DNA from: Branchiostoma floridae | Lineage: Eukaryota > Chordata > Leptocardii > Amphioxiformes > Branchiostomatidae | Direction: 5' to 3' | DNA: 64,000 nt | Assembly: GCF_000003815.2 (NCBI RefSeq) | Contig: NC_049986.1 | Coordinates: forward strand, 13,882,465 to 13,946,464 | In this document: positions 6,880-31,658 of the stretch, in pieces | Layout of the letters: every line of letters begins with the position of its first letter | Numbering within the stretch: position 1 is the first letter of the stretch | Notes under the pieces: generated by a model | What the model saw: the letters and a program-made list of their open reading frames with translations, nothing else | The model's database searches: none | Told to the model about the DNA's origin: nothing | Program-made: the position numbers and the translations under genes

Positions 6880-9280
6880 ATGGCACCCAAGCGCGCAGCT
6901 GTGGATACAGAGCCGGGGACATCGGGTAAAGGTACGTGAAAACGATCAAGAAGCTTCCGGGTGCAGGAATTTTGCTTGGGTTGGCCTAACTCCAACGTCA
7001 ACTTGAGATAAAATTTAGAACCTCCTTACACTCGAGTTTAATATTTACATTCACGGGGACCCGTTTCCCACTTAAAGCATAAGTTTGTAATCGTAGCATA
7101 TTTATGATGATACTAAAACTATCTATAGTTGTTGGAAGCTTGGAAGTGAGTTGTCCTGATACCTAGTGGCTAGTTCTAGTCGAGATACGCCCCTGGGTCA
7201 AGTTTGAGGGCAAGAAAATTTGTCATCAGATCTCCAGGTTTTTATGACGGTAGTAACGTCAAGATATTTAGTAAGAACGAAGATTTCAGAAATTGTTGGA
7301 TGATAATATTTTGAACAGTGAATGTATGGTGTCACAAGTATTTGAAGAACTTGTGTTGTTTTTGCCGCCAAAATGCATGGCGGGAAAATAGCAACGTTAA
7401 TACATACCAGATGTAACGTTTGATTTGAATACACACCATGTTCTGCCTATAATGTAAAATGACCTGTCTGTCTGATTTGTGCTGTTTCATTGTATGCCAT
7501 TGTCTATTGTCTGAGGACAGTATGTTTGTTATGGAAAGTTTGAAGTGTGAAATGCATTTTTGTCACCACAAAACAAAACTACTTTCAGAGAAGCTGAAGT
7601 GTGAACCTGTGAAATAGCTGTCCTGTTTGTGCTGTGCATTGTCTCCATTGCCTTGGAAAGTTTGTGATGGAAAATTCAATTCAAATGACTTTGATTCATA
7701 GACAAAACATAAGATAGTAATACTTTGGAAATACAAAACAACAATTACTAGTCCTATTCCTGAAAACGTCATAACTAAACACTTTTAAGTTTTGAACTTT
7801 TCCACTTTCAGCACCTGCCAAGCCGACGCCCAAGAGAAAGAAGCCCAGCCCTCCCAAGGCCCCAAAGTGTGGCTGTAGAGGAGACTGTAGGTCAAGGTGA
7901 ACACCTGCAATTATTGCACAAATTTTTGACATAATGGGTATACAGGAGATATGCACCTAGCATACATGGAGTTGTTTGTCAAAACTCTTGGGGAAAAGGT
8001 ACCAGCAATTTGTAATGTGTAAACTAAATCAGTATAGACATATTCTGTAAGAGATGCATCACTCATTGTTCACTTTTGTTTTAGCAAATGTGGCTGTGGA
8101 AAGAAGGGGGAGGCCTGTGGGGACGCCTGCAAGTGTATTGGCTGCAGAAACCCCTTCAAAATCCTCAAGGAGTTCAACATCGACTGTGTGGAAGCAGCCC
8201 AGGACAAGTGTCTCATGGACAACATCTTCAAGGTACATCAGCGCAACTTGCATGTCAGCAACACTGTATATGAATGTATTTGCAGTTAATCATAACATTG
8301 CTAGCTTGAAGAAATTCACTGTACTCCATTAATGTTATGAAACATGTTCATAAAAGAATTTCTGGTTCTTGTACAGTTAACCATCTTACCGGTATACCAT
8401 TTTCATACCCTTGAGCAGATTGAAGATCTGAGAGGCCGCCTGGAGCAGAGCCATGAGCTACAGTGCTGTGAGACTTCTGTACAGGTGTGAAGAGCAGTTT
8501 ATGTACCTGTATGGTCTATGTGCTACAGTAAAGATTGTTTTGGGCCTCAGTATGATACTATAAGATGCTTCTTCATTTAGCAGTTGCTTTTTTTTTGTTC
8601 AAGTTTATTCCCTGGTGTGGTCACCTGTCCTGACGATGACTGTGGCTGTGAGTGGCAGTACAGCTGGTGCTCCAACGACTTTGTTGATGAGGAGAATCGC
8701 CCTCGCAACCACTGTGGCATCTGTCGCCACTGTGGGGACTACAGGGATGCTCACTGTGAGGTAAACAAGTGTTGGCATAAAACATGTGCTTCTGATCTAC
8801 CATTGTCAATGTTCCATGCTCTACTATATTGTATGTAGATCTGATGGTTCACAATCTAATTTGAGTTCCATACTCGTAATCACTTCTGTTCACAATCTTT
8901 GTAACTGAAAGGCTCTGGATTCTGGTTATGGCTAACATTTGATTATGGCTAACAGTGTTGGATTGACCATGCATTGTTACTGCGACAGAGTTTTAAAGCT
9001 GCATGATTTGCTTGGCTCATAATAAGATTAACAATGTTATTGTCGATTGCCACTTTGAATGGACATCAATCAACCAGTCATGTCTGTATTGTTGAAACAG
9101 AGATGCAACAAGTGCTACTTTGCCGGCCTGTCTGGTTTCGAGTGCCCATGCAAGGATCGACCACCCAAGCCTAAGGGAGGCATGGGCTCACTGGGCCTGA
9201 TGTTGTGGGCCATGCAGCACTTTGCTGGGGACGACAGCGACAGACTCAGTGATGAGTCAGAGGACGAAGGCTTCTTCTAA
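6880..9280 (+). CDS. CXC-domain cysteine-rich protein, copy 3 (complete)
   Basis: Six coding exons: 6880-6931 (start), 7812-7896, 8085-8232, 8419-8484, 8584-8760 and 9101-9280 (stop); 235 residues. Order: MAPKRAAVDTEPGTSGK; basic linker KPTPKRKKPSPPKAPK (candidate nuclear localisation signal, residues ~19-34); bipartite CXC domain (CGCRGDCRSS, KCGCGKKGEACGDACKC, CRNPF; residues ~36-75); EDLRGRLEQ segment; Cys module (CPDDDCGCEWQYSWC, NHCGICRHCGDYRDAHC); RCNKCYFAG with FECPC; a hydrophobic stretch MGSLGLMLWAM; and an acidic Ser/Asp/Glu tail. The start of exon 5 is odd: the paralogues read LKDM(V/L)PG there, but this copy has a T tract giving LLFFCSSLFPG. I chose 8584 because it preserves phase and the 177-nt length of copy 1. 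The function is presumed nuclear; no orthologue name is offered. Confidence 0.85.
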
Positions 9281-10900: not shown

Positions 10901-12463
10901 TCATCTCTTCCCCCCTGCAGAGTTCTCTGTAGGTTTGATGAAAACTCCCTCCATCACTCTCCAGAAGTTGCCACTGTCCGGCTTGGGGTAGGCGCAGACC
11001 TCCCTCTGCCCGTGGATGGGCCGACCGTAGGTGTCTCCAGTGATGTGGAGGTACGTGTCCGTGGCAGTGTGCTTGAACCTGACCTGGTCATCACGCTCCC
11101 AGTACGTCCCGCTGCAGGTCACCGCCCAGTAGTCACCGTTGTCACCAAGGCCGTCAGTTCCAAACGCACTCACCTGATGATGAAAATAGCTTTTTATTCA
11201 ATCAACATTACTCTGGGTTCATTTTATGTAATTTTTACCAAAATATAATACAGTACCTGAGAACAGACAAATCAAATTGGCCTTAACAAATTGTCCATTA
11301 TGATTGATGGAGAGGGCTGACAAAAGCAATTCTTTCTTTCTTCCTTAAGAGCCCACAATCACTGTTGATCATTATGGCACAGTCTTTATATAACGTGCTA
11401 TCCGAGGGATGTCCTAGCCGAAGCTAGGTACTCATTTTCACCTGAGTGAGGTGGGGAAAGTCGTGTAATGTGCCTTTCCCAAGGACACACGATCCGTGAC
11501 ACGGCAGCATTCGAACTCGGGACCTCTTGGCCTGAGCCCAACGCGCTGCCGATTATGCCACATGATCTCACAATTCATTAATAAAAATGACTAGCTAAAC
11601 ACAAAGAAAGATGAATACTAGTAGATTGATGAGTTAGGAAAGTGAAGTGCCCCTACCTCCTGGTTCCGTGAGAGTGGTGACTGGAAGTAGTGGCTGTGCA
11701 GGTTGCGGCGGGTGGTGGTGTGCATGAGGCGGATAGTCTGACCACATTTGATGGGAGTTCCCCTCACACACGGCTTGTCCGCCTTTCCTTTCACCGCCCA
11801 ATAGCTGTTAGTATCATCTGTGTGAAATTCAATCACAAGATTGAAGTCAGAAAGGCAACCATATGGACAGCCTTCCAAGTTCCAGCAATTACTTTTTATG
11901 CCTTTGAAAGAGTAGACTCTGACAAATAAGCAGTGCTAATTAACCTTTCCATATAAAAGGATATGTCGTCATGAAAATTCATAACTTGTCATAATGTGTT
12001 TGTGTGAGCAAGGAGGTTGAAAATAAGATATGATTATGAAGCAGTGTCTACGCACCCCCCTCCCCTTTTTCTGAAAATTCTGTAACGTAAGACTGACCTC
12101 TTTTAAACTAGGGTAATAGTAATACAAAGATGATATCAAAAACATTAGAAGCAACTCTATGCCTACATGTTTGCAGTTTCCAGACTAATACTAAACCTAT
12201 GATTATGCACATAACGTTCTTATATGATATATACCTGAGGAGTCGACAGCTGTGACCGACTGCTGTCCACTTCCTGATCCGTACTTCACATCGTGAGAGT
12301 GTAGCCGCACGTTGTTCCTGGTGTTCAGAAGCTTCACCACAGACCCACACGTTACGTACGGATACTCGAAATCCTCACATAGCCCGAAGGATAGGAGTAA
12401 ACAGAAGAAAAGCGAGGAAATTTGGTAGAAAAGTGCAGTTTTGCTACAGCCTAGAGCCGCCAT
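10901..12463 (-). CDS. SDF2L1: SDF2/SDF2L1-like ER protein (three MIR repeats)
   Basis: Three exons on the minus strand: 12235-12463 (start), 11657-11817 and 10901-11173 (stop); 220 residues (human SDF2 is about 211). The N-terminus is hydrophobic (ALFYQISSLFFCLLLSFGLC), a signal peptide cleaved near residue 29. Exon 1 carries VTCGSVVKLLNTRNNVRLHS and YGSGSGQQSVT, hallmark SDF2 sequence; exon 2 has TNSYWAVKGK, CGQTIRLMH and LHSHYFQSPLSRNQEV; exon 3 has SAFG, CSGTYWERDDQVRFKH, YLHITGDTYGRPIHGQ and VMEGVFIKP. SDF2-family proteins act with BiP and ERdj3 as ER folding factors. The C-terminus reads NSAGGKR and stops, without the HDEL/HAEL-type retention signal of vertebrate homologues. SDF2 and SDF2L1 cannot be separated here. 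The start codon faces Drosha 176 bp away. Confidence 0.93.
11320..11567 (-). mobile_element. tRNA-derived SINE (family 1)
   Basis: In intron 2 of the SDF2-like gene. On the minus strand it starts with a tRNA-like head: box A-like TGGCATAATCGGCAGCG and box B-like GAGTTCGAATGCT. A body follows containing CCTTGGGAAAGGCAC and CACTCAGGTGAAAATGAGTA. The body block recurs in the copy at 17545-17798, and the element ends in an A/G-rich tail. Confidence 0.65.
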
Positions 12464-12639
12464 GGTTGATTCTGAACGTGGGTCGCTCTGATTGGTCAGA
12501 AACGCCGGCGGTCAAAGGTTACGCGAAGGGTTACGAGAGGTCATGATGAGTCTGGGAAAATGGCGGATTTTCAGAACAAGAAATTTGCGACAATGATTAT
12601 TTTGATGTTTCGCTGCGTTTTTACCTAAATCTATTCAAA
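12464..12639. promoter_or_regulatory. Bidirectional promoter, SDF2-like gene / Drosha
   Basis: Only 176 bp separates the two divergent start codons. It is GC-richer than its surroundings and contains GAAAATGGCGG (around 12555), a YY1-type core promoter motif, and CCAAT-type sequence (CTGATTGGTCAG) near 12488. No TATA box was seen. Both genes are housekeeping-like, consistent with a shared TATA-less promoter. Confidence 0.55.
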
Positions 12640-15600
12640 ATGTTCCCACAGGTAAGTGTAAGATAAACGTTGGGATAATTTGTGACTGTTTGTGAGGTGA
12701 TATGAGGGTGCATTTTAACGAAATAATCGTGCAATTCTGTCTGTAAATTGAGTTGGTACTGACAAAAAGAGCTTTGTTTCTTCCTCGTTTTTACCACACA
12801 GGCTCGATCCATGCATATGGTGGTACGATTTATGGACAGGATGCTAGAAAACGTGCTATTGCTTTCTTGGAGGCTTTATCTATATCAAGTTTCCCTGAGG
12901 GTTAGCTAGGTGTTGACCAAAGGGCACTAAATCACATCAAATGCGACGAAGCGACTTAATTTGGTCGTTAAAACGTTTTAACGCTAGTTCACCTTTATCC
13001 GCGGGGCAACCTATATTCGTTGTTTTTGAAAGCACGGTATTTAGGGATATGAAGTTGACGGAAAGTGGTTTCGAATTGCAAATTTTCAAAATATCACAGA
13101 TTGAAACCACTTGACAACCCTAAAGGCCTCGTTTTTATAATTTTGTTTGCGGGACATTGAAACTGATGAGGTGATCTGATGATTTTCATGATCTAGTTGC
13201 AATCAAACTGACAGTTTGTTGTACATCACTCGTGCCTGTTATGTCCTAACCATCCGATGTTGTCTTTGTTCCTTCACTTCAGGGTCCAGGCCAGGGTGGC
13301 CAGCCCCCACCCTTCAGATATCCCGGACCCCCAGGGATGTTCCCACCAGGCCAGGGGCCAGGTCCAAGAGCAGGTCCCCCTAGGGGCCCACATGCAGGCC
13401 CTCCTCCAAGAGCAGGGCCACCCCCAGATCATCGTGGGCCGTTCCTGATGCATCAGCAGGGGCCGTTTGGGGGCCCCAGGCCTGGTGCACCATGGGGCCA
13501 TCCACCTGGCATGCACACCGGTCCACCTTCCAGTCGGCCCATACTTAGACCGCCACAGTTCAGCCCATCACAACCCCGGCCTGACTTTGGGGCACCCAAT
13601 CCAGGATTCCCACCTCCAAGAGGACCAGTTCATCAACACAGACCGCCAATGAGAGGACCTCCACCCAATCAGGGGCCAATGTTGAGAGGACCTCCACCCA
13701 GTCAGGGTGCAGGATTTAGACTGCCACCACCCAATCAGGGCCCACCAATAAGAGTCCCACCACCCAATCAGGGCCCTCTATTGAGGGGACCACCACCCAA
13801 TCAGGGTCCACCACCCAAAGGACCACCAACCAATCAGGGCCCTGCATTCAGGGGCCCTCCACCCAATGAGAGCCCTCGTATGAGAAGTCCTCATCCTCCT
13901 CAACCTAGACAATCTTCTCCATTTGGTTTTCCTGCTCCTCCATTTTCAGGACCCCCTCCTAGAGGATCTTCCCAACCTGTAACTCCCCCAACTAGTGCGC
14001 CTCGTCCGATTCCTCCCGCCAAGGGATGGGGCAGTGGGGACACAGGTGCTGAGGAGTGGGGGACACCTCCTAAGGGAGGGGCATCATGGGAAGGGCTGTC
14101 CAAGTCTTGGGGGGATGAGGCAAAACCGGAGAAAAGTGAGACGGCATGGGATGTGGACAAACCTGGATCAAGCAAAACGTCATTGGGTTGGGGTGAGCCA
14201 GGACCCAGCAAAGCATCATGGGGAGTAGATGAACCGGGACCAAGCAAAGCATCATGGGGGACTGAGGAGCCTGGACCAAGCAAAGCATCGTGGGGGATGG
14301 AGGAGTCTGGACCAAGCAAAGCATCATGGGGGACGGAGGAGTCTGGACCAAGCAAAGCTTCGTGGGGGATGGATGAACCACATAAAGGTTCATGGGAAAT
14401 GGACAAACCAAGCGCAACGTGGGGATCAGAGACTTCCAGGTCTTCAGGCAGATGGGATGATGGGGGCTGGGGTGACGAGAAGGGGAAAGAGAAGTCCTCG
14501 CAAACTGGAAGAAAACGAATTTCCTCTGTGGCATCTGATGAGCGAAGGCAGAGTGAGCGTGGTGAAAAAAGACGTCGTGATTACAGGTGCGTTTGCTCTG
14601 AATGTCAGGTTATTTGTTTGAATTGTTTTTTGATTGGTTGATTGATTGATTGATGGACTGATTGGCAAGTTGAAACAACATACCTCAATAACCATACTCA
14701 TTAGGCCATACTCATATATGAATAAATGTACTGGTAGTTGTAGGGAACAGTTTTTCAACGATACAAAATGTATATATCTTTGACTTTGTCAAAAATCAGT
14801 TTTCACAATAACTGCTGTATATCTTTGATTTTCAAATCAGCACACTTTTCCAGACATTGCTGTGTCTGCAATCAGCTGATGAAATATAATTATTTACTTC
14901 TTCCAGAGATGATGATTGGGGCCAGTGGGATCCTCAGTCAGTAGATGTGCCAACTCCTACCACCACTGAAACTAAGGAGGGGAGTGGTGACAGGGACAGG
15001 GACAGGGAGAGAAGACCCAGCACTAGTAAGGGGTGGGGGGACAGTCATCCTAAGGAAAGTTCCAGAAGGAAGGAGCATTCAAGGTCCCCACCCAGGTAGT
15101 TTTCACTACAGTCCTCAACTTAGTTTTTAAACAGCCTTGTTTTGAGATAATGGACCTTATATTCATTTGTGTCATAAGTGATAAACCATTGTATGTAACA
15201 TACCAGTTTTGTACAGCAAATACAAGTACAAAGTGCCTTTTCCAAGCACACAACATCAAACTGGTGATTGCTTGATCTTGTATCCGCTAGCCTATCAAGT
15301 TGGCTATTTATCACCACTGAGCTAGTGTGAGTAATAACTTTTCTCCCACTTACAGACATTCCAGATCCAGCTCCCCTGCACCCAAGAGGTCCCGCTGGGA
15401 ACACATTGATAAGGAGGTTGTGAAGGAGAAGGAGAAGCCGATCTGGGAGTGGCTGAGTGGGGGCTCGGAACAAGACAAGGGAGAAGATGATAAAACCAAG
15501 AACCCCCCCTGGGTCAGGTGCTCCCCAGGAGACACCTATTATGACAACTGCGCCTCTGAGCAATTTGTAAGTATGGCTCCAATTTCTGATATTTGTGAGT

Positions 15601-18600
15601 GTGTTTTGATGTTTCAGTGCAAGTTTTCACCCTTGCACAGGAAAGGCAGATGTACAGTGATGTATTTTTTTGCATTTTTTTTCTGGGCCTAATTTGTTGC
15701 AGAAGATAGCTTCCTTCAGTATTATGTGTTAATTTACATGTGTACCTAATATCTAATACCAGCTCAGTAAAGAACCAAAAAAAAAGCAATTCTTTTGAGT
15801 ATCAAACTAACTTGTCAATCCAGGATTGAAGTGTTCCAAGATTCATTTTTTTTCCTAGAACTAAAGTAGAGTGGAACTCTTTACCCCCAAAGTGCCAAGT
15901 ACAGCAGAGGCATCATCATAGCTAACTCATGCAGTTTGATATGCAAAGGTTTGGTGTGACAGGTTGTTTCATGCTGGCACCAAATGGCATGCCTGTGATG
16001 TTGATGTGATATGCCAAAGGGCAGTAATACTGGCTATACAGTATACAGATACTGATCCATAAAAAGCATTGGTAAAGATTGTAGTGATACTCAGTTTAAA
16101 AAGGTACAGCTATATATAATATGCATTTTGCATTTGGTCAGTTAGTCCTCACTCTTAGTGACAATTGAGCTGGTCTCAATCATGATGTTTTTGACCTAGG
16201 GCAAAGAGATGCTGTTGCAGCTACAATGTAACCCGTAACCTTGGAGTGGCACACCTTGAACCTTGGTGTGGTGACCCTTAAGTAAATTTTAAAAAGAATT
16301 TGTGCTTCTCTCCCAGAATGGCTCGAGTGTTGTGGCCACAGACAAGCTGAAGGCTCTGTACAAACAGTTTGAGGAGGTGCTGGGGCTGAGGCAGACCGGG
16401 GCCATGGATGCCAAGCCCCCGCGGGAAGACGCCCCCGAGCCAGAACCGCCGCCCGAGGACTCTGGTATGACAAGCGGCAGTTTCTCCTCACATATGCATT
16501 AGGTAAATGGCTGTACCGATGAGTCCTGGTGTTACCACACATCCCATACAATGTGCCAGCTTCCCTCTATATCGCTTTTCCAGTACATGCTATTGTACAA
16601 CTTTGAGTGTTCAACTGAATTCTAATGGTGTCATATACCTAATTACTCCAACTTGCAAAAAAGGAAGGGGTAACACACATTACAACTCTTATCTATTTTT
16701 GGTACGTGTGAGATGTTTGTATATAAAAAGTCTCTATTTGATGTGAAGTGTACAATCAGCATAATCAATGTGGTGTAAAGTTGTGTTGGGTATAACAAAA
16801 ATGCATGTGTATAGTTAATTCTAGCTATTGTTTCATCTGCAATATGTGCTATACTACATGTACTATAAACAATATATGACTAAGGGTCTTGACTGTTCAG
16901 AGTATATTAATCCTGCTTTATGCTGTCCCTCTGTTGTTCTCCAGAGTCAGAAGAGAGCAGTTCCTCCAGCAGCAGCGAGGAAAGTGAGACGGAAGACACA
17001 GAAAATGATGAAGAAGAAGCAGAGAACATCATGGAGGAGCTGCGTAAGAAGAAGGCTCACCCTGACAGACTTCACGAGGAGCTGTGGTACAACGATCCAG
17101 GAGAGGTTTGTTATTTAGATTCCTTCTAAAGGAAAGTGATCTCGATCCAGTTTTAGCTCACATAAGAGCTATTTTTCCTCTGGTCGTGACAGAGAGGACA
17201 AACGCTCTGTACAGTATTTACAGCTTCATTGTATCGGGGAAGTTCCCCTAGCTCTTTTCGACAATTACAACTAACAGTGGACCACAGCTTAATGTCCCAT
17301 CCCTTTCTGGTAGCGCGCATGTCGGGTGAGTGACACAGCCAGAATCAAACTCACGGCTTCTAGTTCCAGAGGCAAAGCCGCTTAACACTGCTACCTTCAA
17401 GAAATAAGATAAAAGTTATTTCTTACATCCAACATTGTGGAGTACATCCTACCAGTGGCTCATGCTTTTGTTTTGTTTTGTATAACCTGTAAACTGACTT
17501 TAGGTGTAATGTGCCAGTCTTGTGCAGTAAGTATGAATTGTAAGGTTTGATCCACTCACACCAGGATGGACCCCTGCTCTTTTGGTAGGATCTTTAACAT
17601 GATAGAGGTGTGGTTCTCCTGGAACACAACTTCACATCCTATCCGATAGGACACCCCTGGTTACTCGTTTTACCTGAGTCAAGTGAGGAAATAGGTGTTA
17701 AGTGCCTTTCCCAAGGGCACAAAATTAAATTGGGGCCTCCTAGGGATGTGAACCCAGAACCTTTAAATTCTATGTCAACAATCCTAACCACTCTTCAAGA
17801 AAGTCAATCATATTATGCAACAAGATTTAATACACACTTTTTTTGTTTACTTTTAAAAGATGAATGATGGCCCCCTGTGCCGGTGCAGTATGAAATCCAG
17901 ACGGACAGGTATCCGTCACAACATCTACCCAGGAGAGGAGGTAATCTAGTTCAGTTAACATTCTGCCCTACAGGTGTCTTCTTGTGTACCATGTGTCTTT
18001 CTTATTTTGCACTGTGTGTTTTTTCCAAGAAAAGTTCTAAACATGGCATTAGGAGGTTTTGTATATTCTTAGTTTTATGTTGCTTTCTATTCCAGCTGAT
18101 TCCCAAATGTGACCCCTACACCAACAATGCCAACAGACTGCACCACTATCGGATCACCATGTCACCTTTCACCAACTTCCTGGTCAGTTCGCTAACTAAC
18201 ATTTACATCTTATATGATTCTTGGTTTAAGCAGCCTGTATATCAACAGCAGGGACAAAAAATTCAACAGCAAATTTCCTAGCATTTCCTAGGATATTGAC
18301 AATTGTTTCTAATGTGACATTTATGACCAAAGAGGTTCATCTTCAAAAGCAGGAACCAGACAGAAAGAGAGGACTTGACTAACATTCTCCTGTGATAAAT
18401 GCTTTGAGAAATTTTGCATAATAAGAAAATTAAGTTTGACCTGATTTGTTTTCAAACAAGTCTGTAGCACCAAAATTGGGTGCTAAAGATGAACACATTT
18501 TAAAACAGCTCTGCTAATGTATGTTAATCCTTATTTTACAGACAGACCGTCCCACAGTAATCCAGTATGACGACCATGAGTACATCTTTGAGGGGTTCTC

Positions 18601-21600
18601 CATGTTGTCTCACCAGAAACTACAGAATGTGAGGGGCGATTCTGTATTCAACAAAGCTGATTAACAGATAAAAACTAGAAAAGCATCTTATTTCACTACA
18701 CAAAACTGTTCTATGATACAAGTGTATGTATTGTAGTAACAAAGTAGTTGGATATCGTTCATTGTTGACTTTTTTTCTTTTTAGATTCCTGACTGTAAAC
18801 TAATCAGATTCAATATCGAGTACACCATTCATCTCATTGAAGAAAAGATGCCAGAGGTGAGTATTCTATTTTTTATTGTAATGTTCCTTCAAGTTCATGA
18901 CAAATCTTTATAGATTGCACTTTCTTTTGCACCCTATCACTGCCTTCAACATTTTGTGTTTGTTTGTTTCAGAACTTCTGTGTGCATGGACTGGACATGT
19001 TCTCAGACTTCCTGTTTAATGACATCCTGGAGCTGGTGGACTGGGACAGATGGGGTAGGTTATACAGAGAATTGATCAACATTAATGTAGAGTATTTGGA
19101 GAAGGACAACCTCAAGCCAACCGTTCACACTTACGCCATATCTTCAGAAAAGACACTGGAGCCTCATGTTCCCTGTGTAGGAACTTTATTCAAATCGACA
19201 CACAACAATGGAGCCGCATGTTCCCCGTATAACAATATGATATGATATGATAAACATTAATGTATTAGCTAGCTTCTGCCTTTTATTGCCCCCCTCTCAA
19301 GTTCTTATCAAGTCCTCAGTGTTTCAATTAAAGAAGCACTGCTAGGAATCATCTGAATTGTATCTGTACACTGAAATATATTCTTTAGGTATGAACTTGC
19401 AAGTTTTTTTGGTAATATGTGAATTCGGAGCGAAATGTCAAACAAACAACCAGGGGTAAAACATCCTCTTGTCTGGTACAGTACTCTATATCTTCTTCAT
19501 TGAATACACAATAGATTTTCTTATCTTCTTCTGCAGGTCCTTCCAGAGTAGATGGGAAGAAGAAGGGCTGCTGCAGGTTCCACTTCATGCCTCGCTTTGT
19601 CAGAAACTTGCCTGGTGAGCAGTCAGTGATTCTATTTTTTCAAAAGATGTTAAAAGTATGTAAACACAAGTAAAGATATACAGATTGTTGCCCTTTTGCA
19701 ATGCAAGTTCCTATTGTTCTGCTTGTGCTGTTTCCCTTGTTCCAGTTTCTTAGACAAATGTTAAAAGAAAAGAGGCACTTTTGAACATGTTTTATTATGC
19801 TCAAAGGTTAGTGTACAAAACAAGTTTGTGACAAAATTATACCGAAATGGTTCAGGAAAAGAGCAGAATACATGTAGAGTTGTTTGCCTTCATGTATTGA
19901 AGATATCTTTCTCATGCATCCCACCATTCATACAACCACATACATGTACATTTTTTTGTTTCATCTGCACAGAGAACGGAAAAGAAGTGCTGGCGATGCA
20001 CCAGGTCCTGCAGTACCTCCAGAGGAGTAACCGGCCGCTGGTGGAGGCCTCAGAGCTGGCCCTGCTGCTGCAGCTGGAGGAGTACGAGTGGCAGAGGTTT
20101 GCTGAACAAACCAAGAACATGATCGTCACCCATCCTGGAATGGTACGTCCCACGTTGTTGACATCTACCTGCATCGTTATACATTGCCTCACCTTTCCAC
20201 TAGCGGCTGTGATCGCTGAGCATTCAGCTTAGTAACCAGAGATTTGACAGATCGCATATAAATTACATAGACAATGAACAAAATTTTTTACGTTTCTTGT
20301 GTTTTTTTGTTTGTTAAATGATATTTTTATTTCTTGCATCATATTCCAGTTATGAAAACAAGCGTTATACAAATCTAATTTTGGTCACTGTGATCAATGT
20401 CTAGTGGAAAGGAAGCCTTATTATATACAGTACCTTATCATATACTAGTATCTCTCTGGATATACTAGTATTCCATATCATACATGTATATCACTCTTAG
20501 TATAGATATTTCCACACGTATGAAGCACACAAAATTTTGTATAGTTGGGGTGCTTGTCTCTATGCCTGCCTTGCACAAAAGGGAAATTTTCTGGTATCAA
20601 TGCAACCAGCGCAAGCCTTTGATTTCTTTGTACATTTGTGCCAATATTGAACACAACATCACCCCCTGAATCTGCTACAGAAGCCCTGTTCAGTTCGTGT
20701 GGACCAGTTGGACAGAGAGCAGCTGAACCCAGATGTCATCAGTTACCCTGTCATCGTTCACTTCGGCATCAGACCTGCACAGCTCAGCTATGCAGGGGAC
20801 CCCAAGTAAGTCTGAACCTTTGTACTCTGTTCTAAAATACATAGCTGTAAGATCAGGTTGGGTAATTTTGAAATTAGAATTATTTGAACTTTGAATTTGC
20901 AATTGATAAGCTGTGCTTTTTGTCAGATAAGTATATGCTTGGAAGAAGACTGTATTGTTGCAGGCATTGTTTGTCAAAGGCTTTAAGTTTAGTCAAATAA
21001 GTGGCTGTGATAATTAATTTTTCTTAATTTTATTTCCTCTTGTTTCAGATACCAAAAGTTGTGGAAGTCATACCTGAGATTGCGGCATCTTCTAGCAAAC
21101 AGGTACTATGTCCCAAATTATAGTTATAGTGAATTCTTATTTTTGATTAGAATTTTTTATGTTAGAATGCTTTAATTTGTGGTATGTTCATAATGATCAG
21201 TTATTTTCTCTTTCCAGCCCAAAAGTCAGACCCCAAGACAGACAGAAACTCTTTATTCGAGAGGTAAATGTTTTATTGCATACTAGTTAAGACTTTGAAG
21301 CAGATAGATAGTTGCTGTGGTGTAAAATCCAATGAAACTTATCAAAAGGAAAAGATAAATCATTACTAGCCTCAGAAGCCAGTCTGAACCATAGCTTTAG
21401 TAAGAGGAAATATCAGTAAGTTATGCAGTAACACTGGATTAGTTTTGCAGGAAAGAAAGTCTTTGTGAAATTGTGTCTATTAAGTATTTTGTACTTTTCA
21501 TTTCTTCCAGACTGAATTGCAAAAGATTCGGTCAAAGAGGTGAGTGTGTCTAACATTGTCTCTCAATTCGGTGGTGGCAAGATTTAGTATTACTTTTGAT

Positions 21601-24600
21601 GTCCAGAATTATGAACTTTTCTGTCATTTCATTTCTTTATATCTTCTTTTTTTCCTTCCTTCAGCGAGATGAGAAGGGAAGTGACTGTTGAGCTGAGTAG
21701 TGAAGGGTTCGTCAGGACAGGTATCAGGTCTGATGTGTGCCAGGTGAGAAAAATACTTAACTTCAACATCCCATCTGTTCCTTTTGATGCTAATTATTAA
21801 AAGATATTGTTCACCATGCAAGTTTGTAGACAAATTAAAGGTCCAAAGGCAAAATGTTACGAGTCATGTATTGTCTTCTCAATACAGTTAGTTAATAAGG
21901 TATTTGCCACGAGAATGTAAGCATAAATCAATGTGATCACGACAATATATTCCTATAGGCAGGTCATGCAACTTGATGCGGTGGGTGCATCTTATTAGTA
22001 TCCATTATTTCTTTTCTTTTAATCCTGATTGTGTTTACCCAGCATGCCCTGTTGCTTCCTGTACTGATGCACTACCTGCGGTACCACGCCTGTTTGAATG
22101 AGCTGGACCAGCTCCTGGGCTCCAAGTTTGAAGACAGGTCCCTGTTAGAGGTGTGCTCAATGTTGCTTCTCTGGTCCTCTTTAAGCCCCTGTTACTCTGT
22201 CAAACTCAAAGAGCTTTGTCCATATTTGTTTATCACCTGAATGTTTTCATCTTTGAGCACTGCTGTTCTTAGGATTTCAGAAAGTTGTTCTTTGTATTTC
22301 TGCACAGCTTGCCCTGACTCATCCTTCTCACCATCTGAACTTTGGTATGAATCCTGACCATGCCCGAAACTCCCTATCAAACTGTGGTATGAGACAACCA
22401 AAGTATGGGGACAGAAGAATTCACCATGTGCACACTCGCAAGAAGGGTAAGAGTTAGCAACAATACCTAGTGCACGAGTTCTCCTCATCAGATGTATAAG
22501 CTTAACAATAGCAACAAAGCTACATATCAAATACATGTTGTCTTCTCTCAATCTATTTGTCTCATTTATCCCAACCCGTATTTTTTGTCTATTCACGTTT
22601 ATGCTTGTATAATTTGCGTGTATATAACCTGTAGCATATTGATCTTGTTGTTTTTTGTTTACCATTTTTCCCAGGTATCAACACATTGATCAACATCATG
22701 TCCAGAATGGGCCATGATGAAGAAACGCCATCTCTGTAAGCCATCTCAGATATCTGACTTTAAACTAGACATTTAAGAAGTTTTCCATGTTAAAGATGTT
22801 TAAAGTGAGAAAATTGATTTTCCCAATGCAGCCTTACTGGTACTGAATCACAGCACCGATGCATGATACGAGTCTGTGAAATATTAATTCCATGTCATAA
22901 AGAAATAACCCAAATGAAATATCATTATCATAACAATAACCTCAATGTCTACATATTGATAATGCATTGTCAACCTCTATCAACTTAAAACCTATTGTAA
23001 ATCATACTCTTCACTTCAGCCCATAACAACTGCTATTATAGCATAGTATATGACCGTTTGAGGCAGATGAACCATTTTCATGGGTGTGTCTTTGCCCCCA
23101 GTATCAACCACAATGAGAGACTGGAGTTCCTGGGTGATGCTGTGGTGGAGTTTCTCACCAGGTCAGTCTTGTCAAACTCACTATCAATTCATTGGGCATG
23201 TTATTGTAGTATATGTATTTATGAAAATTTTATTTTGAGTGTAGCACCCAGTAATTCTATATTCTAGACCAGTATTTTGGATAATGATTATGGAATGCAA
23301 GTTCCTTGGATATACAGGTAAAGTAGATTTTCAAATCAGGAAACACTGCTAGAAATTATCTATGTATCTTTTCAGCTCCCATCTTTATTTCATGTTCCCT
23401 GACTTGGAGGAGGGAGGACTGGCAACATACAGAACAGCCATTGTGCAAAATCAACATTTGGCTGTTCTTGCAAAGGTACAGTCCTACATGTACTTTGTCC
23501 ATACCTTGTGATAAAATTGTGAAATTTTCCTCTAGCAGTCTTTGAAGAAGAGAAAGTATAATGTATTGTTTAAGTGCTACTTACTAGTCCATATTGATAC
23601 ATAAGCTGGTCACAATTTCTTAGGATTGTTCTATTGTAAAAGTTCAAAGTTATGAAACTATCTTTTTCCAGTTGTAGGCTCATCTATACAGCCAAGTAGT
23701 TGGTACAAGTTACAGAAAGAAATATGACTGAATCCTCCAAAATGTTTTGATATCTGTGGTTATTTCTAGGATTGTATGCTTTATCCTTCTTTCATACCTT
23801 TCTCTGAGATAACTGTATATTTGTTTCCCTATCCTTTCCACTATGTAGAAGTTGCGACTGGATGAGTTCATGCTGTACGCCCACGGGCCAGACCTGTGCC
23901 GTGAGTCGGACCTGCGGCACGCCATGGCCAACTGTCTGGAGGCCCTGATCGGCGCCATGTACATGCAGCAGGGCCTGGAGGAGACCAAGAAACTCTTCTG
24001 TAGACTGCTCTTCAGCGATGAGGTCAGTTCTCACATGGTCTATCCACACTGGCCACTTTTCATTTCGAAAGGCACCAAAAATTCCAAATGTATATGAAAC
24101 AAAGTACTTCATTATATCTTGAAGTATATTGCTGCTAACAGTATTTTCTATGCTTCTTCCAGGACCTTCAAGATATCTGGTTGAACCACCCAACACACCC
24201 ACTACAGGTAACTTTTTAGTTTTCATGACTTCATAATACTTTGTAAATTTGGTAATTTGTATTTTTAATACCTCTATGTTGTGTCTGTATAAGTGTCAAA
24301 ATGTTATTTTTATTATTTCACAGCAACAAGAACCAGAGGGAGACAGACACCTAATTGAATCATCACCAGTTCTAAAGGTTTGACAATACTTTGAATGTTT
24401 TCCTCAATACTACTTTCTTATCACATTTACTGTTATTTGCTCTTATAACTTAGTGACAATTTCAACCTTTCTCTCCATCTATGTCCTGATAGTTGATTTC
24501 TTCAAAATGAGGCATCACTTTAAGTTATGTTGGTGTAAAGTTTTGAGCAAGTGTGAAACTTTGTGTTGTATTTCAGCGGTTGACAGAGTTTGAGAGTCGG

Positions 24601-27600
24601 TGTGGGATGGAGTTCAAACATGTCCGCCTGCTAGCCCGAGCCTTCACACACAGGACTGTAGGCTTCAACAACCTGACTCTGTAAGTACACACAGGACTGT
24701 AGGCTTCAACAACCTGACGCGGTAAGTACACACAGGACTGTAGGCTTCGAACAACCTGACTCTGTAAGTACACACAGGACTGTAGGCTTCAACAACCTGA
24801 CTCTGTAAGTACACACAGGACTGTAGGCTTCAACAACCTGACTCTGTAAGTACACACAGGACTGTAGGCTTCAACAACCTGACTCTGTAAGTACACACAG
24901 GACTGTAGGCTTCAACAACCTGACTCTGTAAGTACAGCCTACTGATGCTACAAAGTACTGAAGTCAAGGCTTATCCAGTAAAAAGTTTAGGGCTCAAATG
25001 AGGAAATGTGGGGAAAGGTTTGTTGAAACTCTAGACAGTCAATAGTTTATAAAGATTTTATACCCTATTTCCGTGCACTTACCATCAAGCTCTTGATCAG
25101 TCCTCTGATCCTTTACAAGTTGAAATGACTCTAAGCCTATGACCAAAATTTCAGCTTTAGAAGAATGAGAGTATTGAGCAAAAGCTTGCTGGTAAGTGCT
25201 TCACTTTGGCCGTGGAAAGGGGTATAAAATCTTTATGATGTCAATTACCATGGCGAATGAGCTTTCATTGGAAAGAATGAAGGTCAAGCTGAAGTTTGGT
25301 GAAGGCAGATACCATAGCAAAGGGTAAAGGGACACAAACAAGGACTAGCAAAACATCTCTACAGTGACTACCAAAGAAACAAATGTCGTAACAGACAATG
25401 TAAGAAAATGTATTCTCACCTAAGACACATTACAGAAAAAAATTCAATTTTTCATTTTAAATAAAAAATCTTTTCTCCCATACAACAGAGGCCATAACCA
25501 GCGTCTAGAATTCCTGGGTGACTCCGTGATGCAGATGGTGTCATCAGAGTACCTGTATAAACACTTCCCTGATCATCACGAGGGCCATCTGTCTGTGAGT
25601 ACCTGTTTCCTGTATCACACACAGCTCATTGAGATGCAGTAATCTTCCTTCAAAAGAAAACTATAAATAGTATAATGTAACTGTTGGTGGTTTTGTGAGG
25701 TGTTTCCTTCTGCAGTTTCAGACCTTCATTGGTATCAGATCACCTTCCTTTAAAAAAAAAATGAACACAAAGAGATTGGGTAGTTTTCTATAGTTATTGA
25801 ATGGAGCAAAATTGACTATTGGTATTTATTGAGGATAGAATAGTTTTCCTCTTTGTTCTTGGATGTAATATTAATAACCTGTAAAGTAATAATGTAATTT
25901 GTAAAATTAGGTGAAGAAAATTTTGATATTTTTACTTCCAGCTCTTGAGAAGTTCCCTGGTGAACAACAGGACGCAGGCGCTGGTGTCTCAGGACCTGGG
26001 TATGGAGGAGTACATCATCTCCAGTGACAAGGCACGTCAGGGGAAACTGTCTCTTCGGCAGAAAACACTGGCTGATCTCATGGAAGGTTAGGATAACTAG
26101 CAGTGTCACTGTCACTAGAAATTGTCCAGGCTTACTACGTTAGATACATAGCAAACCAGTAGACTGACTAATATTGTGGAAGTTTATTTGCAAGTTCATG
26201 CCCGAAGGCTAATTGAAGGTACATGATAGAAACAAAGAGAGGGGATATGCATGTAACAGTAAACATTGATAAATATTATGATAAGCACAGTCATATGTTA
26301 CCACGGTAGTCATTTGTGACTTACTGTATAGCTAGAGAGCCTAATACCTCTGTTTTAAGATGTTTGAGACTGCATTATTTCAAACTTCATGTTCATGTTC
26401 ATAATAAGATTAGCACCTCAGATGTAGTTGAATTTTGAACGTTTTTTTTTTACGATTGATGTTGATGAATACATGTTTCTCTTGTTCCACTCTAGCCTTC
26501 ATGGGTGCTCTGTATGTGGACCAGGGTCTGGAGTATGTTTGTGTCTTCATGAACGTCTGCTTCTTTCCAAGGCTAAGGGTGAGTAATCCTTGTCACAATA
26601 CTTCAAGGACTAAAAAATGTCTTTTTAAAATTGTTGTTAGCTGTGAAAGTGAATCAAAAGTTTGACCAATGCAATTGGTTGTTACCAGGGACTTAGCTTA
26701 ACACATTACCAATCGTCTATGCTGAGACATCTTAGCTACCCAATATCTTTGAACCAATCGTGTATGCTTAGACATCTGTGCTAACCAATATCTTTGAACC
26801 AATCAGATCTGCAGTACCATTTGAGCTAACCAATGACATGAACTGTTTCATCAGGAGTTCATCATGAACCAGGAGTGGAATGACCCCAAGTCCCAGCTTC
26901 AGCAGTGCTGCCTGACCTTGAGGACAGAGGGCAAGGAGCCTGACATACCCTTCTACAAGTCAGTGTTCTTTTCTTGGCCAACCTGTTGTCTGATGTTGAA
27001 AAATATTAATCAAGATAGTATCTGATGTTTGAAGAAATTCCTGAAAAATATTATGTTTTGAGGATTCGTACATGAAATAATTACTGACCAAAGTGTTATT
27101 CCTACGAAAAGGTTACTTATGTGTTCTGTTGTTTCATTCTTTCACAAGAACTATAAAATATTATATATATCAGATTTGTATTGCAGATGTATAAGTCAGT
27201 GTTTTGAACCACGAGAACTTCTTTAAGATGAAAGTTAACTTCTGTACTTGATATGATACACAAGAGATCTTATTTGTCCCTTACCTGCCACATGTAGGAT
27301 CCTGGACAAGGCTGGCCCCTCCCATGCCAGGAAGTACACTGTGGCAGTCTACTTCAAGGGAGAGAGGATTGGCACAGGGGTGGGCTCCAGCATACAGCAG
27401 GCTGAGATGGCAGCAGCGAGGGACGCTCTCAAGAACTGTGAGTGACTGAAGGCTAATGATACACACTGACAATATGGTGGAACTGTAGAGGCACTGTACA
27501 GATAGATATTTGATGTAGGGCTCATCTCTTGTAGCATTCTGGTGTGTGACAGAAAGGTACTTGTGTCTATTCCTAGTAGCATGATTTCAAAATCATTCCC

Positions 27601-28430
27601 ACTCCTTTTGGTGTATATGGGCCATCTCCATAGCCCTTGAGTCTTGTAAGGTCACTACAGAAGTGGCTAGTCCAGTGTTCAACTTGCATACTCTTACTCA
27701 TAAGTGCTGAGGATGTAGTATCATTTCTTTTGGACCCACAACCCTCTGAATGCCTCAAACCACTAGGCTATTGCACCAGTTCATGAAGCATTTTGAGGGA
27801 GTGATTTTTAATCCTCTGGTTCAGAATTGGTACATGTCTACTATCAACTGAACAACACAAGCTATGTTTACTGGAATGGCTCAGGTCACTCACAATCTCT
27901 TGAGTAGATATCTTCCATAGTGTGCTAAAGCTTTGGGTGTATTCATTTATATTTGGACCCTAGCCATAAAAGCACAAGTTATGTATCCAAAGACATGACA
28001 AATAGACCTGCAAAAATGTTACGAATGAAAAGTTTGACCGATGCTGTTGCTTGTTCCATGAGACCCAGCTTAACACATTTCCAGTTGTGTATGCGTAGAC
28101 ATCTGAAGTAACACACAGAACACAAAATTTAAACCAGTCATGTCTGCTGAGACATCTGAGAAAAACCAAAGGGAAAACTTATGTAAATATTGATGAATTC
28201 ATAACATCGTGCAATCTTGTTATTCTCCAGACAAGTTTCCCCAGCTGGCCCACCAGCGCAGGTTCATGGACAAGAAGTACAAACATCTCCGCCGTATCCT
28301 GGACATCGAGGAAGAGAGGAGCGGGAGGAGGAAGGAGGGAGGGAGGGACAAGGAGAGGAGGAAGGACAGAAGGAGAGAGCCAAAAAAGAAGGGGAGAAGA
28401 CCAGAGAGGGGGACAAGTCTGCAAAGTTGA
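12640..28430 (+). CDS. DROSHA: Drosha, nuclear RNase III (complete)
   Basis: Drosha is the catalytic subunit of Microprocessor (with DGCR8/Pasha) and cuts pri-microRNA hairpins in the nucleus. I traced 33 coding exons with consistent phase, 1,545 residues (human ~1,374): 12640-12651, 13283-14586, 14907-15095, 15356-15566, 16317-16464, 16945-17105, 17860-17940, 18096-18182, 18542-18628, 18785-18856, 18973-19054, 19537-19614, 19973-20142, 20681-20805, 21049-21102, 21218-21263, 21511-21539, 21665-21743, 22043-22150, 22308-22446, 22675-22735, 23102-23161, 23376-23475, 23849-24022, 24163-24207, 24324-24377, 24577-24680, 25489-25594, 25942-26086, 26496-26578, 26855-26958, 27298-27437, 28231-28430. 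Layout: Pro-rich N-terminus (~5-250), WG-repeat region (~251-490), acidic Ser patch, central domain from ~655 ([19 protein letters not shown]), RNase IIIa near 1110 ([15 protein letters not shown]), RNase IIIb near 1290 ([11 protein letters not shown]), dsRBD ~1400-1480 ([15 protein letters not shown]). Both catalytic signatures are intact. The C-terminal ~40 residues are unusually basic. Confidence 0.97.
13640..13870 (+). repeat. Coding Pro/Asn/Gln repeats in Drosha exon 2
   Basis: Imperfect tandem peptide repeats of the form PPPNQGP followed by a hydrophobic residue and RGP, about eight units (residues ~124-200). They form a low-complexity proline-rich N-terminal tract. Vertebrate Drosha is also proline-rich here but does not share this repeat. 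Confidence 0.8.
14180..14385 (+). repeat. 39-bp coding minisatellite (GPSKASWG)
   Basis: Five near-identical 39-bp units encode GPSKASWG followed by five variable residues (VDEP, TEEP, MEES, TEES, MDEP). A more diverged unit precedes and another follows. The unit length is divisible by three, so copy-number change keeps the frame. Confidence 0.85.
14633..14664 (+). repeat. (TGAT)n-like simple repeat in Drosha intron 2
   Basis: TTGATTGGTTGATTGATTGA-type run just downstream of the exon 2 donor. Confidence 0.7.
17163..17393 (-). mobile_element. tRNA-derived SINE (family 2)
   Basis: In Drosha intron 6. The minus strand starts with a tRNA-like head (box A-like GTTAAGCGGCTTTGCC, box B-like GAGTTTGATTCTGG). 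A body follows with TAGTTGTAATTGTCGAAAAG and a 3' end near TACTGTACAGAGCG. The sequence is old and diverged; target repeats are not clear. Confidence 0.6.
17545..17798 (-). mobile_element. tRNA-derived SINE (family 1, older copy)
   Basis: Same intron. The minus strand has a degraded tRNA head (GTGGTTAGGATTGTTGAC and box B-like GGGTTCACATCC). The conserved body GCCCTTGGGAAAGGCACTTA and CTCAGGTAAAACGAGTA matches the copy at 11320-11567. More diverged than that copy. Confidence 0.6.
24646..24933 (+). repeat. 41-bp minisatellite carrying a splice donor, Drosha exon/intron 27
   Basis: Seven tandem units start at 24646, 24687, 24728, 24770, 24811, 24852 and 24893. Each contains ACACACAGGACTGTAGGCTT, the remainder of the exon end (CAACAACCTGACTCT) and GTAAGT. 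Unit 1 is the authentic 3' end of exon 27 with its donor at 24681; six further units repeat the exon end and donor inside the intron. Unit 2 has a GCG variant before its donor and unit 3 carries one extra base. Reading through unit 1 meets TAA at once, so only the first donor gives full-length Drosha. Confidence 0.95.
25050..25235. mobile_element. MITE-like element in Drosha intron 27
   Basis: Terminal inverted repeats of about 50 bp: TAAAGATTTTATACCC at the left pairs with GGGTATAAAATCTTTA at the right, continuing through CTTACCA...CAAGC and GCTTG...TGGTAAG. No coding capacity. An interior block (GATCAGTCCTCTGATCC, then AAATGAC) has a relative at about 32063-32105. Confidence 0.65.
26707..26842 (+). 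repeat. ~45-bp tandem repeat in Drosha intron 30
   Basis: Three diverging units of the form ACCAATCGTGTATGCTTAGA...CTAACCAATATCTTTGA. The last unit runs almost to the acceptor of exon 31. Sequence from about 26652 through the first unit also resembles intron 32 (28030-28165). Confidence 0.65.
27590..27778 (-). mobile_element. tRNA-derived SINE in Drosha intron 32
   Basis: The minus strand starts GGTGCAATAGCCTAGTGGTT (a good box A), then a box B-like GGGTTGTGGGTCC. A short body extends toward 27590. Confidence 0.55.
28305..28425 (+). other. Polypurine G-rich tract in Drosha last exon
   Basis: The coding strand is almost pure A/G. It contains GGGAGGAGGAAGGAGGGAGG followed by GAGGGAC, which fits a G-quadruplex-type pattern (four GGG runs). 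It encodes a basic Arg/Lys-rich tail in the used frame. Confidence 0.6.
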
Positions 28431-29584: not shown

Positions 29585-30232
29585 CCACATGCATAAGAAA
29601 GCATTTCATTGATGACTACATTAGCACACATGATAACTTTTGACCTGCACTGCCACATTTTAACACTCTATACATTCTCAATACACTACTTACAGTTGCC
29701 TTATAGTTCTTTTTTTGGGCTTTGTCACAGACCCCATCAAAATCCCAGTATCATCTACAGCTTGCTTTTATTGTTTGAAAATGACTGACTTCAGGGAAAA
29801 TATTGATTGTTAGCATACTGAGAGTAGGGAGTCTAGTTGCGAGCAGATTATGTTCTGTAACAGCTGGTGGTGCAAGTGGTGGCTGAGGGCCCTTCACCAT
29901 CGCTTTACCTACCGTAGCAGCTGTTTGGGGGCAGACTTAATGGAAGAAATTGTTTCAGGGTTTTCAGTTTTACAATAATTAACCCCGGACATGTGTTAGA
30001 AATCACAGACACTTATGCAAAACTCTAGCTGAATTTATACCGTTATTTGATGATTTAACCTTTTACTTTGAGGGAAAGCACTACAAAGTTGGAGAGATAT
30101 ATGATGGGTGCAGTTGGCTTGTGTTTATTACACTGGGTGATGTGAAACAATAGTTAACGTTTGCTACAGGTGGCACTTATCGAAAGCTTGTAGACCGGAT
30201 CTTACGATTTGGGAAACTCATAACGTCCAAAG
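28431..30232. other. Drosha 3' UTR and intergenic DNA up to the ZIP gene
   Basis: AT-rich, with no coding potential recognised. It contains one long (GT)n microsatellite (29524-29582). The promoter of the ZIP gene presumably lies in the last few hundred bases; no TATA box stands out. Confidence 0.6.
29524..29582 (+). repeat. (GT)n microsatellite
   Basis: About 29 uninterrupted GT dinucleotides. Reverse-strand translation gives a poly-(Thr-His) artefact. Confidence 0.98.
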
Positions 30233-31658
30233 ATGGACCCAACAGGAGCGAAACTGGTCAGCCTTGCCGCTGTTCTTGTCGGCAAGTTGGTTTTTAACTT
30301 GCTTCCTTTAAAATGTATGTCTCGTCGGTCCTCCGGCGGAGACTCCGAACCCGCCTCTAACACAGGACACTCCGGTCGGACTGTGACTTTCCTCAACTGT
30401 TTCGCGGGAGGCGTTTTTCTGGGGACATGTTTTTTGGGACTCCTCCCCACCGTGAGAAAGAAGATGTCGTTACTTCTGGAGGCGCGGGGCTTCAACCCGG
30501 ACTACCCCGTGGCGGAGTGTGTGTCCGTTATGGGCCTGTTGTTGTCCATCCTGGTAGAGCAGTTCGTGATGACGTGGCGCTCGTACGGACAGTCCACGGT
30601 CTTTGAGCTGAGTTTTCACGGTAGGTGACCTTTCTTTTTTACTTTGTTTGAAAGCCTTGATCTGAACTGTTGAATGCGAGCAATGAGCAGACCCTAGTTT
30701 GTAGCAGCTTGCAATAACTTATAAGAAATATTTCAGTTTCCTGAATATTTTTAGGATAACAATGTAACAAGTTGGGCAGCTTTAGACTAACATCTTTTTA
30801 CATTACCCTCTATCATACATCACTCGTAAACTTTATGATAATGAAATTTCCATTACAAAGCTGTTTTGATTCAGTACTTACGCGTATTGTACCTAATTTG
30901 CCTTTATTGGTTTATTCTGAAAGAAATTCTAAAATGCAAATAAATATATGGACGATGGAAATACATGAGGGCACAACAAAATGTGTACTCAATTAATAAT
31001 CAATTTATATGCTCACTTCTATCAATTTCTATGCAACCAAAAATAGCATTCACAAGCCAATGATATCTTCGGGCCCCTCCCGCTCCATCTTGCAGGTCAT
31101 AGTCATTCTACGGAGGAAGAGAGTACCCTGGAAAACCATGGAAACAAGTCACCCTCGTCCCCACTGCAGATCCAACGTCACAAGCCAGATGGCGAGTCCT
31201 TCAGCATCAGACCTTACGCGCTACTCCTGGGCCTGTCTGTACATTCTGTGTTCGAAGGGCTGGCTATAGGGCTGCAAGACAACGTAACTCTCGTGCTGAA
31301 GATCTTTGCTGGGATAGAAATTCACGAATGCCTCGTGGCGTTCGCGTTAGGAGTGAATCTCGTCAAACACGGCATGGCAACGAAAACAATAATCAAAGTA
31401 GCCATTCTGTTTTCTGCCATGATTCCTCTTGGTATCGTTATAGGGATGGGCGTTCAGAGCATCAAGAGCTTCGGGGGTGAAGTGTTGGCTGCAGTTCTCC
31501 AGGGATTCGCCGGAGGGACCTTTTTGTACGTCACCTTCCTGGAGGTTCTCTGTCAAGAATTTAATTCTAGAGACCGCAAAGTGGCGAAAGTGTTATGTGT
31601 AGCCACGGGATTTCTACTGATATCAGTCTTGACATATTTCTTGAAGAACAATATCTAA
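30233..31658 (+). CDS. SLC39A3: ZIP-family zinc transporter, SLC39A3-like
   Basis: Two coding exons, 30233-30620 and 31096-31658, 316 residues, phase-consistent. Eight membrane segments can be placed: ~8-28; TM2 NCFAGGVFLGTCFLGLLP; TM3 VAECVSVMGLLLSILVEQFV; a short loop with HGHSH and acidic residues (the ZIP variable loop, unusually short); TM4 LLGLSVHSVFEGLAIGLQ, the ZIP signature with metal-binding His and Glu; TM5 IHECLVAFALGVNL; TM6 SAMIPLGIVIGMGV; TM7 LQGFAGGTFLYVTFLEVL; TM8 VATGFLLISVLTYFL. The HE pair in TM5 and the SAMIPLGI and GGTFL(Y/F)(V/I)TFLE stretches resemble vertebrate ZIP3 more than ZIP1 or ZIP2. Predicted role: zinc (and perhaps other divalent metal) import across the plasma membrane. 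Subfamily placement is by eye. Confidence 0.93.

Follow-up and report, generated by a model that had tools for sequence, protein, structure and literature searches.

A tryptophan-rich, Argonaute-hook-like region in the Drosha gene of the lancelet Branchiostoma floridae

The predicted Drosha protein of Branchiostoma floridae carries many Trp residues next to Gly ahead of its conserved core, which raises the question of whether this RNase III has an Argonaute (AGO) hook of its own. Cells need the N-terminal region of Drosha, which is weakly conserved and little understood (PMC10558778, PMC12027344; papers are cited by such numbers throughout). The Argonaute-hook platform is a known kind of module, and its occurrence in Drosha is new as far as we have seen: a WG or hook region in this enzyme appeared in none of the literature matches listed, which cover titles and the openings of abstracts, with subscription literature mostly outside. 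We analyzed a window of 64,000 nts (C8:13882465-13946464; the whole stretch of DNA considered here) from the 513-Mb genome (431 contigs), which contains a complete Drosha gene on the forward strand.

The Drosha gene and its Trp-rich region

The gene model was predicted from the genomic sequence, with exon borders taken from splice sites and from similarity to what we take to be the human Drosha sequence (66% identity over 981 columns of the part so compared). Its central and catalytic part matches human Drosha chains of solved structures (such as 6v5b, 6lxd, and 9asm) with E = 0, and the protein has the features of a class II RNase III, namely a central domain, two RNase III domains, a dsRBD, and an intact frame. 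Splice sites are weak at a few junctions (acceptors down to -1.5 bits and donors down to 2.4 bits on the gene's own matrix), and the junctions of exons 1-4 preserve one open frame. From the N- to the C-terminus, the order is a Pro-rich domain (36% Pro in residues 1-246), the WG module (residues 250-405), a short basic stretch, the part encoded by exon 3, and a linker alignable with human Drosha. The features of the gene are listed in Table 1. Five RNase III-like loci (L001-L005; viral contigs, 32-38% identity) were considered as further Drosha sequences and rejected as not Drosha.

Table 1. Predicted coding exons, tandem arrays, and Trp module of the Drosha gene in the window
Feature	Position	Strand	Basis or remark
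Drosha coding region	12640..28430	+	31-exon model, 1529 aa, zero internal stops
Coding exon 1 (MFPQ; ATG TTC CCA CAG / GTAAGT)	12640..12651	+	Predicted; phase 0 join to exon-2 frame
Coding exon 2 (Pro-rich domain, then WG module)	13283..14586	+	Acceptor, donor (9.4 bits), open frame
33-nt tandem array in Pro-rich domain, PPPNQGP units	13650..13875	+	TRF
WG module proper, residues 253-400, with 15 Trp at intervals of 5-14 residues	14027..14470	+	Argonaute-hook-like contexts
36/72-nt tandem array in module, units GPSKASWG-x-[DE]-E-[PS]	14160..14379	+	TRF
Coding exon 3 (Trp at residues 443, 446, and 482, non-hook-like)	14907..15095	+	Context matrix
Coding exon 4 (linker, including KRSRWE; start of the conserved central domain, NPPWVRC)	15356..15566	+	Human chain alignment

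Residues 250-488 of the spliced protein (239 aa) contain 18 Trp, 13 of them touching Gly, an exact recount of the numbers that a preliminary description of this DNA had given for about 230 residues. The residue that follows Trp is Gly at 13 sites, Asp at three, and Glu at two, and the preceding one is Ser at eight sites, Gly at four, and a different residue at each of the remaining six; the five positions after Trp include an acidic residue at 17 of the 18 sites. Fifteen of the Trp codons (starts at 14027-14468) belong to exon 2 and three (14917-15034) to exon 3, separated by the intron at 14587-14906. Part of the Trp residues do lie in tandem repeats, as had been described. We also used a collapsed sequence, an artificial construct that retains a single one of the five near-identical array units. 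The enrichment of Gly-adjacent Trp over shuffled sequence was seen for the full region (13 observed versus a mean of 5.0 in 20,000 composition-keeping shuffles, P = 5e-5) and for the collapsed one (9 of 14 versus 3.8, P = 0.0025).

Successive Trp residues between 253 and 400 are 10, 10, 7, 13, 14, 10, 12, 12, 12, 12, 10, 9, 11, and 5 residues apart. Even with the array collapsed, random placement equaled their regularity in only four of 50,000 trials (P = 8e-5). Over all 18 Trp, 13 of the 17 gaps are at least 10 residues, and a chain of 14 Trp can be drawn in which each step is at least 10. TNRC6 sites consist of two or more Trp that are ten or more residues apart (PMC9262622), a spacing that the Drosha module shares. 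Like a GW platform, the region has several WG/GW motifs and is poor in hydrophobic residues: the large hydrophobics (FILMVYC) make up 5% of it versus 33% of the Drosha core, a composition from which the region is predicted to be disordered. The tetramer TGGG occurs 18, 1, and 2 times in the three frames of the WG region (the array units adding to the 18) versus 2, 8, and 3 times in the core; this bias places the Trp richness at the protein level and rules out a G-rich DNA repeat translated in whichever frame it happened to fall. An explanation of the array by RNA structure was rejected, as 14160-14420 folds no better than its shuffles (z = +1.4), and Rfam gave zero matches at gathering scores in the whole 64-kb window.

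Vertebrate Drosha has a Pro-rich and RS-rich N-terminus at the same place before the central domain. The preliminary description knew of no WG region there, and none was seen in the solved human protein: within the residues compared, 25-189 and 248 to the linker, Trp is absent before KKRARWEEEKDRW. Human isoform 4 lacks a short segment that presumably carries one Trp. When the lancelet N-terminus was compared with the full-length human isoform (9asm), similarity was significant only from residue 423, and the match of the Pro-rich part was non-significant; the Trp region of exon 2 alone had no Drosha match among solved structures at E up to 10. The module is therefore present in lancelet Drosha and not seen in human. 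The vertebrate N-terminus is required for microRNA output in cells (PMC10558778).

We also scanned exon 2 for GT sites above 4 bits on the gene's own matrix. The sole in-frame alternative donor lies at 14439 (4.1 bits versus 9.4 for the exon-2 donor); out-of-frame sites reach 6.8 bits (14135) and 5.9 bits (14192), and an acceptor-like site of 9.2 bits lies at 13950. Because real donors of the model drop to 2.4 bits, these sites are candidates for alternative splicing, which may occur at the module. On the strand opposite to the WG exon, 13900-14580 forms an open frame of 226 residues, probably a by-product of codon composition. The Pro-rich domain contains two PPGM motifs (13328-13339 and 13502-13513, forward strand; residues 20-23 and 78-81), and motifs of this type are bound by GYF-domain proteins such as the splicing factor CD2BP2. 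The PPxY motif is absent from residues 1-560; human Drosha has PPGY (PMC10558778).

Trp contexts compared with TNRC6, and AGO genes of the same genome

A genome search with the Pfam Ago_hook model hit a single place on contig C171 (L045-L046; 25.4 bits, cut-off 25). The exons there encode a protein whose Trp-rich N-terminal half is followed by Gln-rich and RRM-like parts (the latter 17.7 bits, under the cut-off of 20.7 in hmmscan) and a Trp-containing C-terminal half. From this order the gene reads as TNRC6/GW182, and its AGO binding is assumed from the family. Neither its Trp-rich exon (L045:4426-7056) nor a stretch of 405 residues from the long exon that follows was assigned to any Pfam family by hmmscan at E up to 0.1. 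The Drosha WG region was likewise unmatched by Ago_hook (PF10427); since hmmscan misses the Trp-rich exon of TNRC6 in the same animal, absence from Pfam is little informative for Trp-rich disordered regions. No homology between module and TNRC6 was detected when the collapsed module was run against the genome (E up to 10) in a search limited to candidates from a loose first look: it yielded three rows within the exon that encodes the module and four weak places (E = 0.39-5), and C171 was not among them. A place with E = 5.9e-4 was rejected as a duplicate or paralogue of the WG region; on the opposite strand there, a frame can be read as part of a C2H2 zinc-finger gene.

To score the Trp contexts, we built a matrix of positions -4 to +6 around the 32 Trp of the Argonaute-binding domain of B. 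floridae TNRC6, which stands in for a dedicated hook predictor (Wsearch), and used 4000 shuffles that preserve Trp positions and composition. The 18 Drosha Trp had a mean score of 1.52 versus -2.85 in the shuffles (z = 5.1), and the 14 of the collapsed sequence 0.66 versus -3.22 (z = 3.9), with no shuffle as high in either case; the hook scoring against shuffled sequence that had been proposed thus came out positive by way of this matrix. The leave-one-out mean of TNRC6 under its own matrix (-0.76) is below that of Drosha. The result was stable with pseudocounts of 2, 5, and 10 and when the matrix was limited to one part of TNRC6 or the other (9 or 23 Trp). As a background we took 366 Trp sites from the window's other open frames (at least 60 codons; mostly not necessarily real proteins), with 95th and 99th percentiles of -2.05 and 2.14; 15 and 10 of the 18 Drosha Trp scored above these, as did 21 and 14 of the 32 TNRC6 Trp. 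Low means were obtained elsewhere in Drosha, at -7.3 for the 7 Trp of the core, -7.7 for the 4 Trp of linker 488-560, and -5.3 for the lone Trp of the Pro-rich domain, as well as in a fibrinogen domain (-8.8, 13 Trp). The specificity of the matrix is gauged against shuffles, window frames, and the listed domains.

A second matrix, from 12 Trp of the TNRC6 silencing domain, gave non-significant values for Drosha (z = 0.75 and 0.62), and the silencing-domain Trp themselves scored -4.0 under the Argonaute-binding matrix. Six of these 12 Trp have Ser at +1 versus none of the 18 in Drosha. As judged from sequence, the Trp contexts of Drosha resemble those of the Argonaute-binding domain of TNRC6 and not those of its silencing domain. 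Most of the signal adjoins Trp and is weaker beyond ±1: the +1 position alone (G/D/E) yielded z = 5.4 for the full and 4.6 for the collapsed sequence, and with ±1 held fixed the values were 2.5 (P = 0.005) and 1.7 (P = 0.048), or 2.3 (P = 0.009) and 1.6 (P = 0.06) in a narrower window. An Argonaute-hook-like region had been placed at 14021..15045. Its exon-2 part stands (15 Trp, z = 4.6); the three Trp of exon 3 were rejected as part of the hook (z = 0.9, P = 0.19).

A candidate partner is present in this organism. We assigned genes on C17 and C149 to the AGO clade and genes on C8, C11, and C3 to the PIWI clade by reading their sequences. The PIWI domain of the C17 AGO (L040) matches human AGO2 with E = 8.7e-192, and 17 of 18 Trp-pocket positions are identical to AGO2, the remaining one being Val instead of Ile. 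Most of these positions are those that we take to form the pockets, the human letters having been confirmed in solved chains. Two of the 18 are named in PMC9262622. In a PIWI-clade gene (L042), four of the five alignable pocket positions differ. In the AGO genes (1879-1971 and 2318-2419 of L040; 1602-1715, 1768-1860, and 3504-4409 of L041), the exon for the first catalytic Asp (GADVTHPP) occurs in tandem versions and YRDGVSEGQFQQV exons are repeated; these may be mutually exclusive exons or products of local duplication.

A possible AGO tether and its rivals

At about even chances, we read the module in exon 2 as a convergent Argonaute-hook-like one that tethers Microprocessor to guide-loaded nuclear AGO. 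Exon 2 would encode a disordered, multivalent Trp module whose side chains insert, two or three at once, into the pockets of the AGO PIWI domain; AGO has three such pockets, which are strongly conserved in metazoans, and disordered WG contacts are likely convergent (PMC9262622, PMC12477606). One Drosha tail could hold one or more AGOs, the 14-Trp chain being enough in principle for several. Most likely, guide-loaded nuclear AGO would be tethered to Microprocessor at nascent primary microRNAs, with either Microprocessor brought to transcripts that AGO recognizes or AGO brought to sites of processing. Both the hook-like sequence and the pocket residues are present in B. floridae, and from them we infer that Drosha may bind AGO, in the nucleus and with an effect on processing. 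The preliminary description had proposed an AGO contact that links cleavage to effector loading or transcription. The hook-like contexts and the retained pockets favor such a contact, and its loading part is the weaker one: TNRC6 favors guide-loaded RISC over guide-free AGO (PMC9262622), so a contact with loaded nuclear RISC fits better than loading.

Known cases bear on this tether in both directions. ALG-1 guided by let-7 promotes the processing of pri-let-7 (PMC3771402, citing Zisoulis), and human Ago2 with Dgcr8 processes pri-miR-183 in cells without the Drosha N-terminus (PMC10558778). Co-immunoprecipitation of the human proteins detected contact of Ago2 with Dgcr8 and not with Drosha, full-length human Drosha competes rather than cooperates with Ago2 for pri-miR-183, and Drosha 390-1365 is sufficient in vitro (PMC10558778). 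In the lancelet, the module would join Drosha to AGO directly, a link for which human relies on Dgcr8. Human Drosha, in which no WG module was seen, shows that the enzyme works without one, which counts against the tether; the dominance of the +1 position, the origin of five Trp from a young array, the second array in the exon, a synonymous excess that reaches beyond the Trp core of the array (below), and the lack of a Pfam match may do so as well.

Differences between the array units bear on whether the Trp residues are merely carried along. Comparison of five units of the WG array gave 9 synonymous and 4 non-synonymous changes (P = 0.001-0.002) where about 26% synonymous is expected under neutrality, the counts being small and from a single genome. 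Its GPSKASWG core had 4 and 0 (P = 0.005-0.007) and the remaining four codons 5 and 4 (P = 0.03-0.05), and the synonymous excess therefore extends beyond the Trp core; seven units of the Pro-rich array had 6 and 7 (P = 0.16). These counts suggest protein-level constraint on the WG array, and the excess argues against pure drift. The frame bias of TGGG and the spacing that stays regular after collapse point the same way. Hence, we consider it quite unlikely that the region is a functionless, lineage-specific expansion of drifting tandem repeats in a fast-evolving disordered linker, even though exon 2 contains a recent 36-nt array next to a second one, no counterpart was seen in human, and conservation within Drosha is lowest at the N-terminal region (PMC12027344). 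Other Trp-pocket proteins include CCR4-NOT subunits and PAN3, and the module might bind one of these, or a nuclear factor, instead of AGO. An acidic residue so regularly downstream of Trp might fit some other pocket, and CCR4-NOT is among the proteins recruited by TNRC6. The partners of hooks may extend beyond AGO (PMC10991848). The silencing-domain matrix, built from 12 Trp only, found no such likeness in Drosha, nor does any Drosha Trp have the Ser at +1 that is frequent in that domain, and we give this reading little credence.

The Trp residues, with charged and small residues as spacers, might also serve as aromatic stickers without a specific partner, promoting nuclear condensates or self-association, with the likeness to TNRC6 reflecting shared sticker-spacer physics. 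Their even spacing among few other hydrophobics would suit this, Drosha of C. elegans, whose N-terminal regions are disordered, assembles into condensates (PMC12027344), and a condensate-promoting role has been suggested for Argonaute-hook regions too (PMC10991848). Stickers, however, have no need for the G/D/E found at +1 in 18 of 18 sites, and the contexts match the Argonaute-binding but not the silencing part of TNRC6, although both are Trp-containing and of low complexity. Recruitment of C. elegans Drosha to granules is, moreover, only partially dependent on the disordered regions (PMC12027344). We regard stickers alone as unlikely.

Compared with known systems, the proposed hook is closest to TNRC6/GW182 in having Trp flanked by Gly, Asp, or Glu and small residues, in steps of ten or more residues, within low-complexity sequence. 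It differs in that its host is an RNase III, its Trp are denser and more regular (gaps of 5-14 residues in exon 2 versus 5-89 in TNRC6), and other hydrophobics are rarer (5% versus 13%). The plant hooks of NRPE1, SPT5L, and SPT6L are likewise variable WG/GW repeats on proteins of nuclear RNA machinery; they sit, however, on RNA polymerase and elongation factors of DNA methylation and not on an enzyme for small-RNA precursors. Several different plant proteins have gained variable WG/GW hooks (PMC10991848). C. elegans DRSH-1 also has a disordered N-terminal region, which is needed for a subset of microRNAs and is proposed to recognize sequences or structures of primary transcripts; unlike in the lancelet, no Trp platform is mentioned for it in the main text of PMC12027344, where the word tryptophan occurs zero times.

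A hook-like module in Drosha would be a concrete, mutable handle for asking if the beginning and the end of the microRNA pathway are physically linked in the nucleus and, if real, an animal parallel to the plant nuclear proteins with gained hooks. It is rather doubtful, but conceivable, that a Drosha with a built-in hook holds guide-loaded AGO and Microprocessor in one nuclear assembly in which a microRNA directs the processing of pri-microRNAs. If so, a microRNA could steer the processing of primary transcripts, its own included, by protein tethering.

Other genes and motifs in the window

SDF2-like exons (10904-12511, reverse strand) lie head to head with the Drosha start codon at 12640, and the two genes possibly share a promoter. 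Of the MIR domains in the SDF2-like exons, one exceeds the Pfam cut-off (E = 1e-7) and another stays under it; no match was obtained for the putative first exon. A similar Cys-rich motif (GCGKKGEACGD) was found in two stretches of the forward strand, of which 8038-8286 resembles the MSL2 CXC domain just below the Pfam cut-off and 26-355 is without a Pfam match. After each stretch comes another Cys-rich frame of similar kind (8581-8835 and 698-946, respectively). Downstream of Drosha, the window contains exons of a ZIP zinc transporter (30224-31655, forward strand), a fibrinogen C-terminal domain (35525-36262, reverse strand), and the HTH of a Mos1-type transposase (60552-60875, forward strand).
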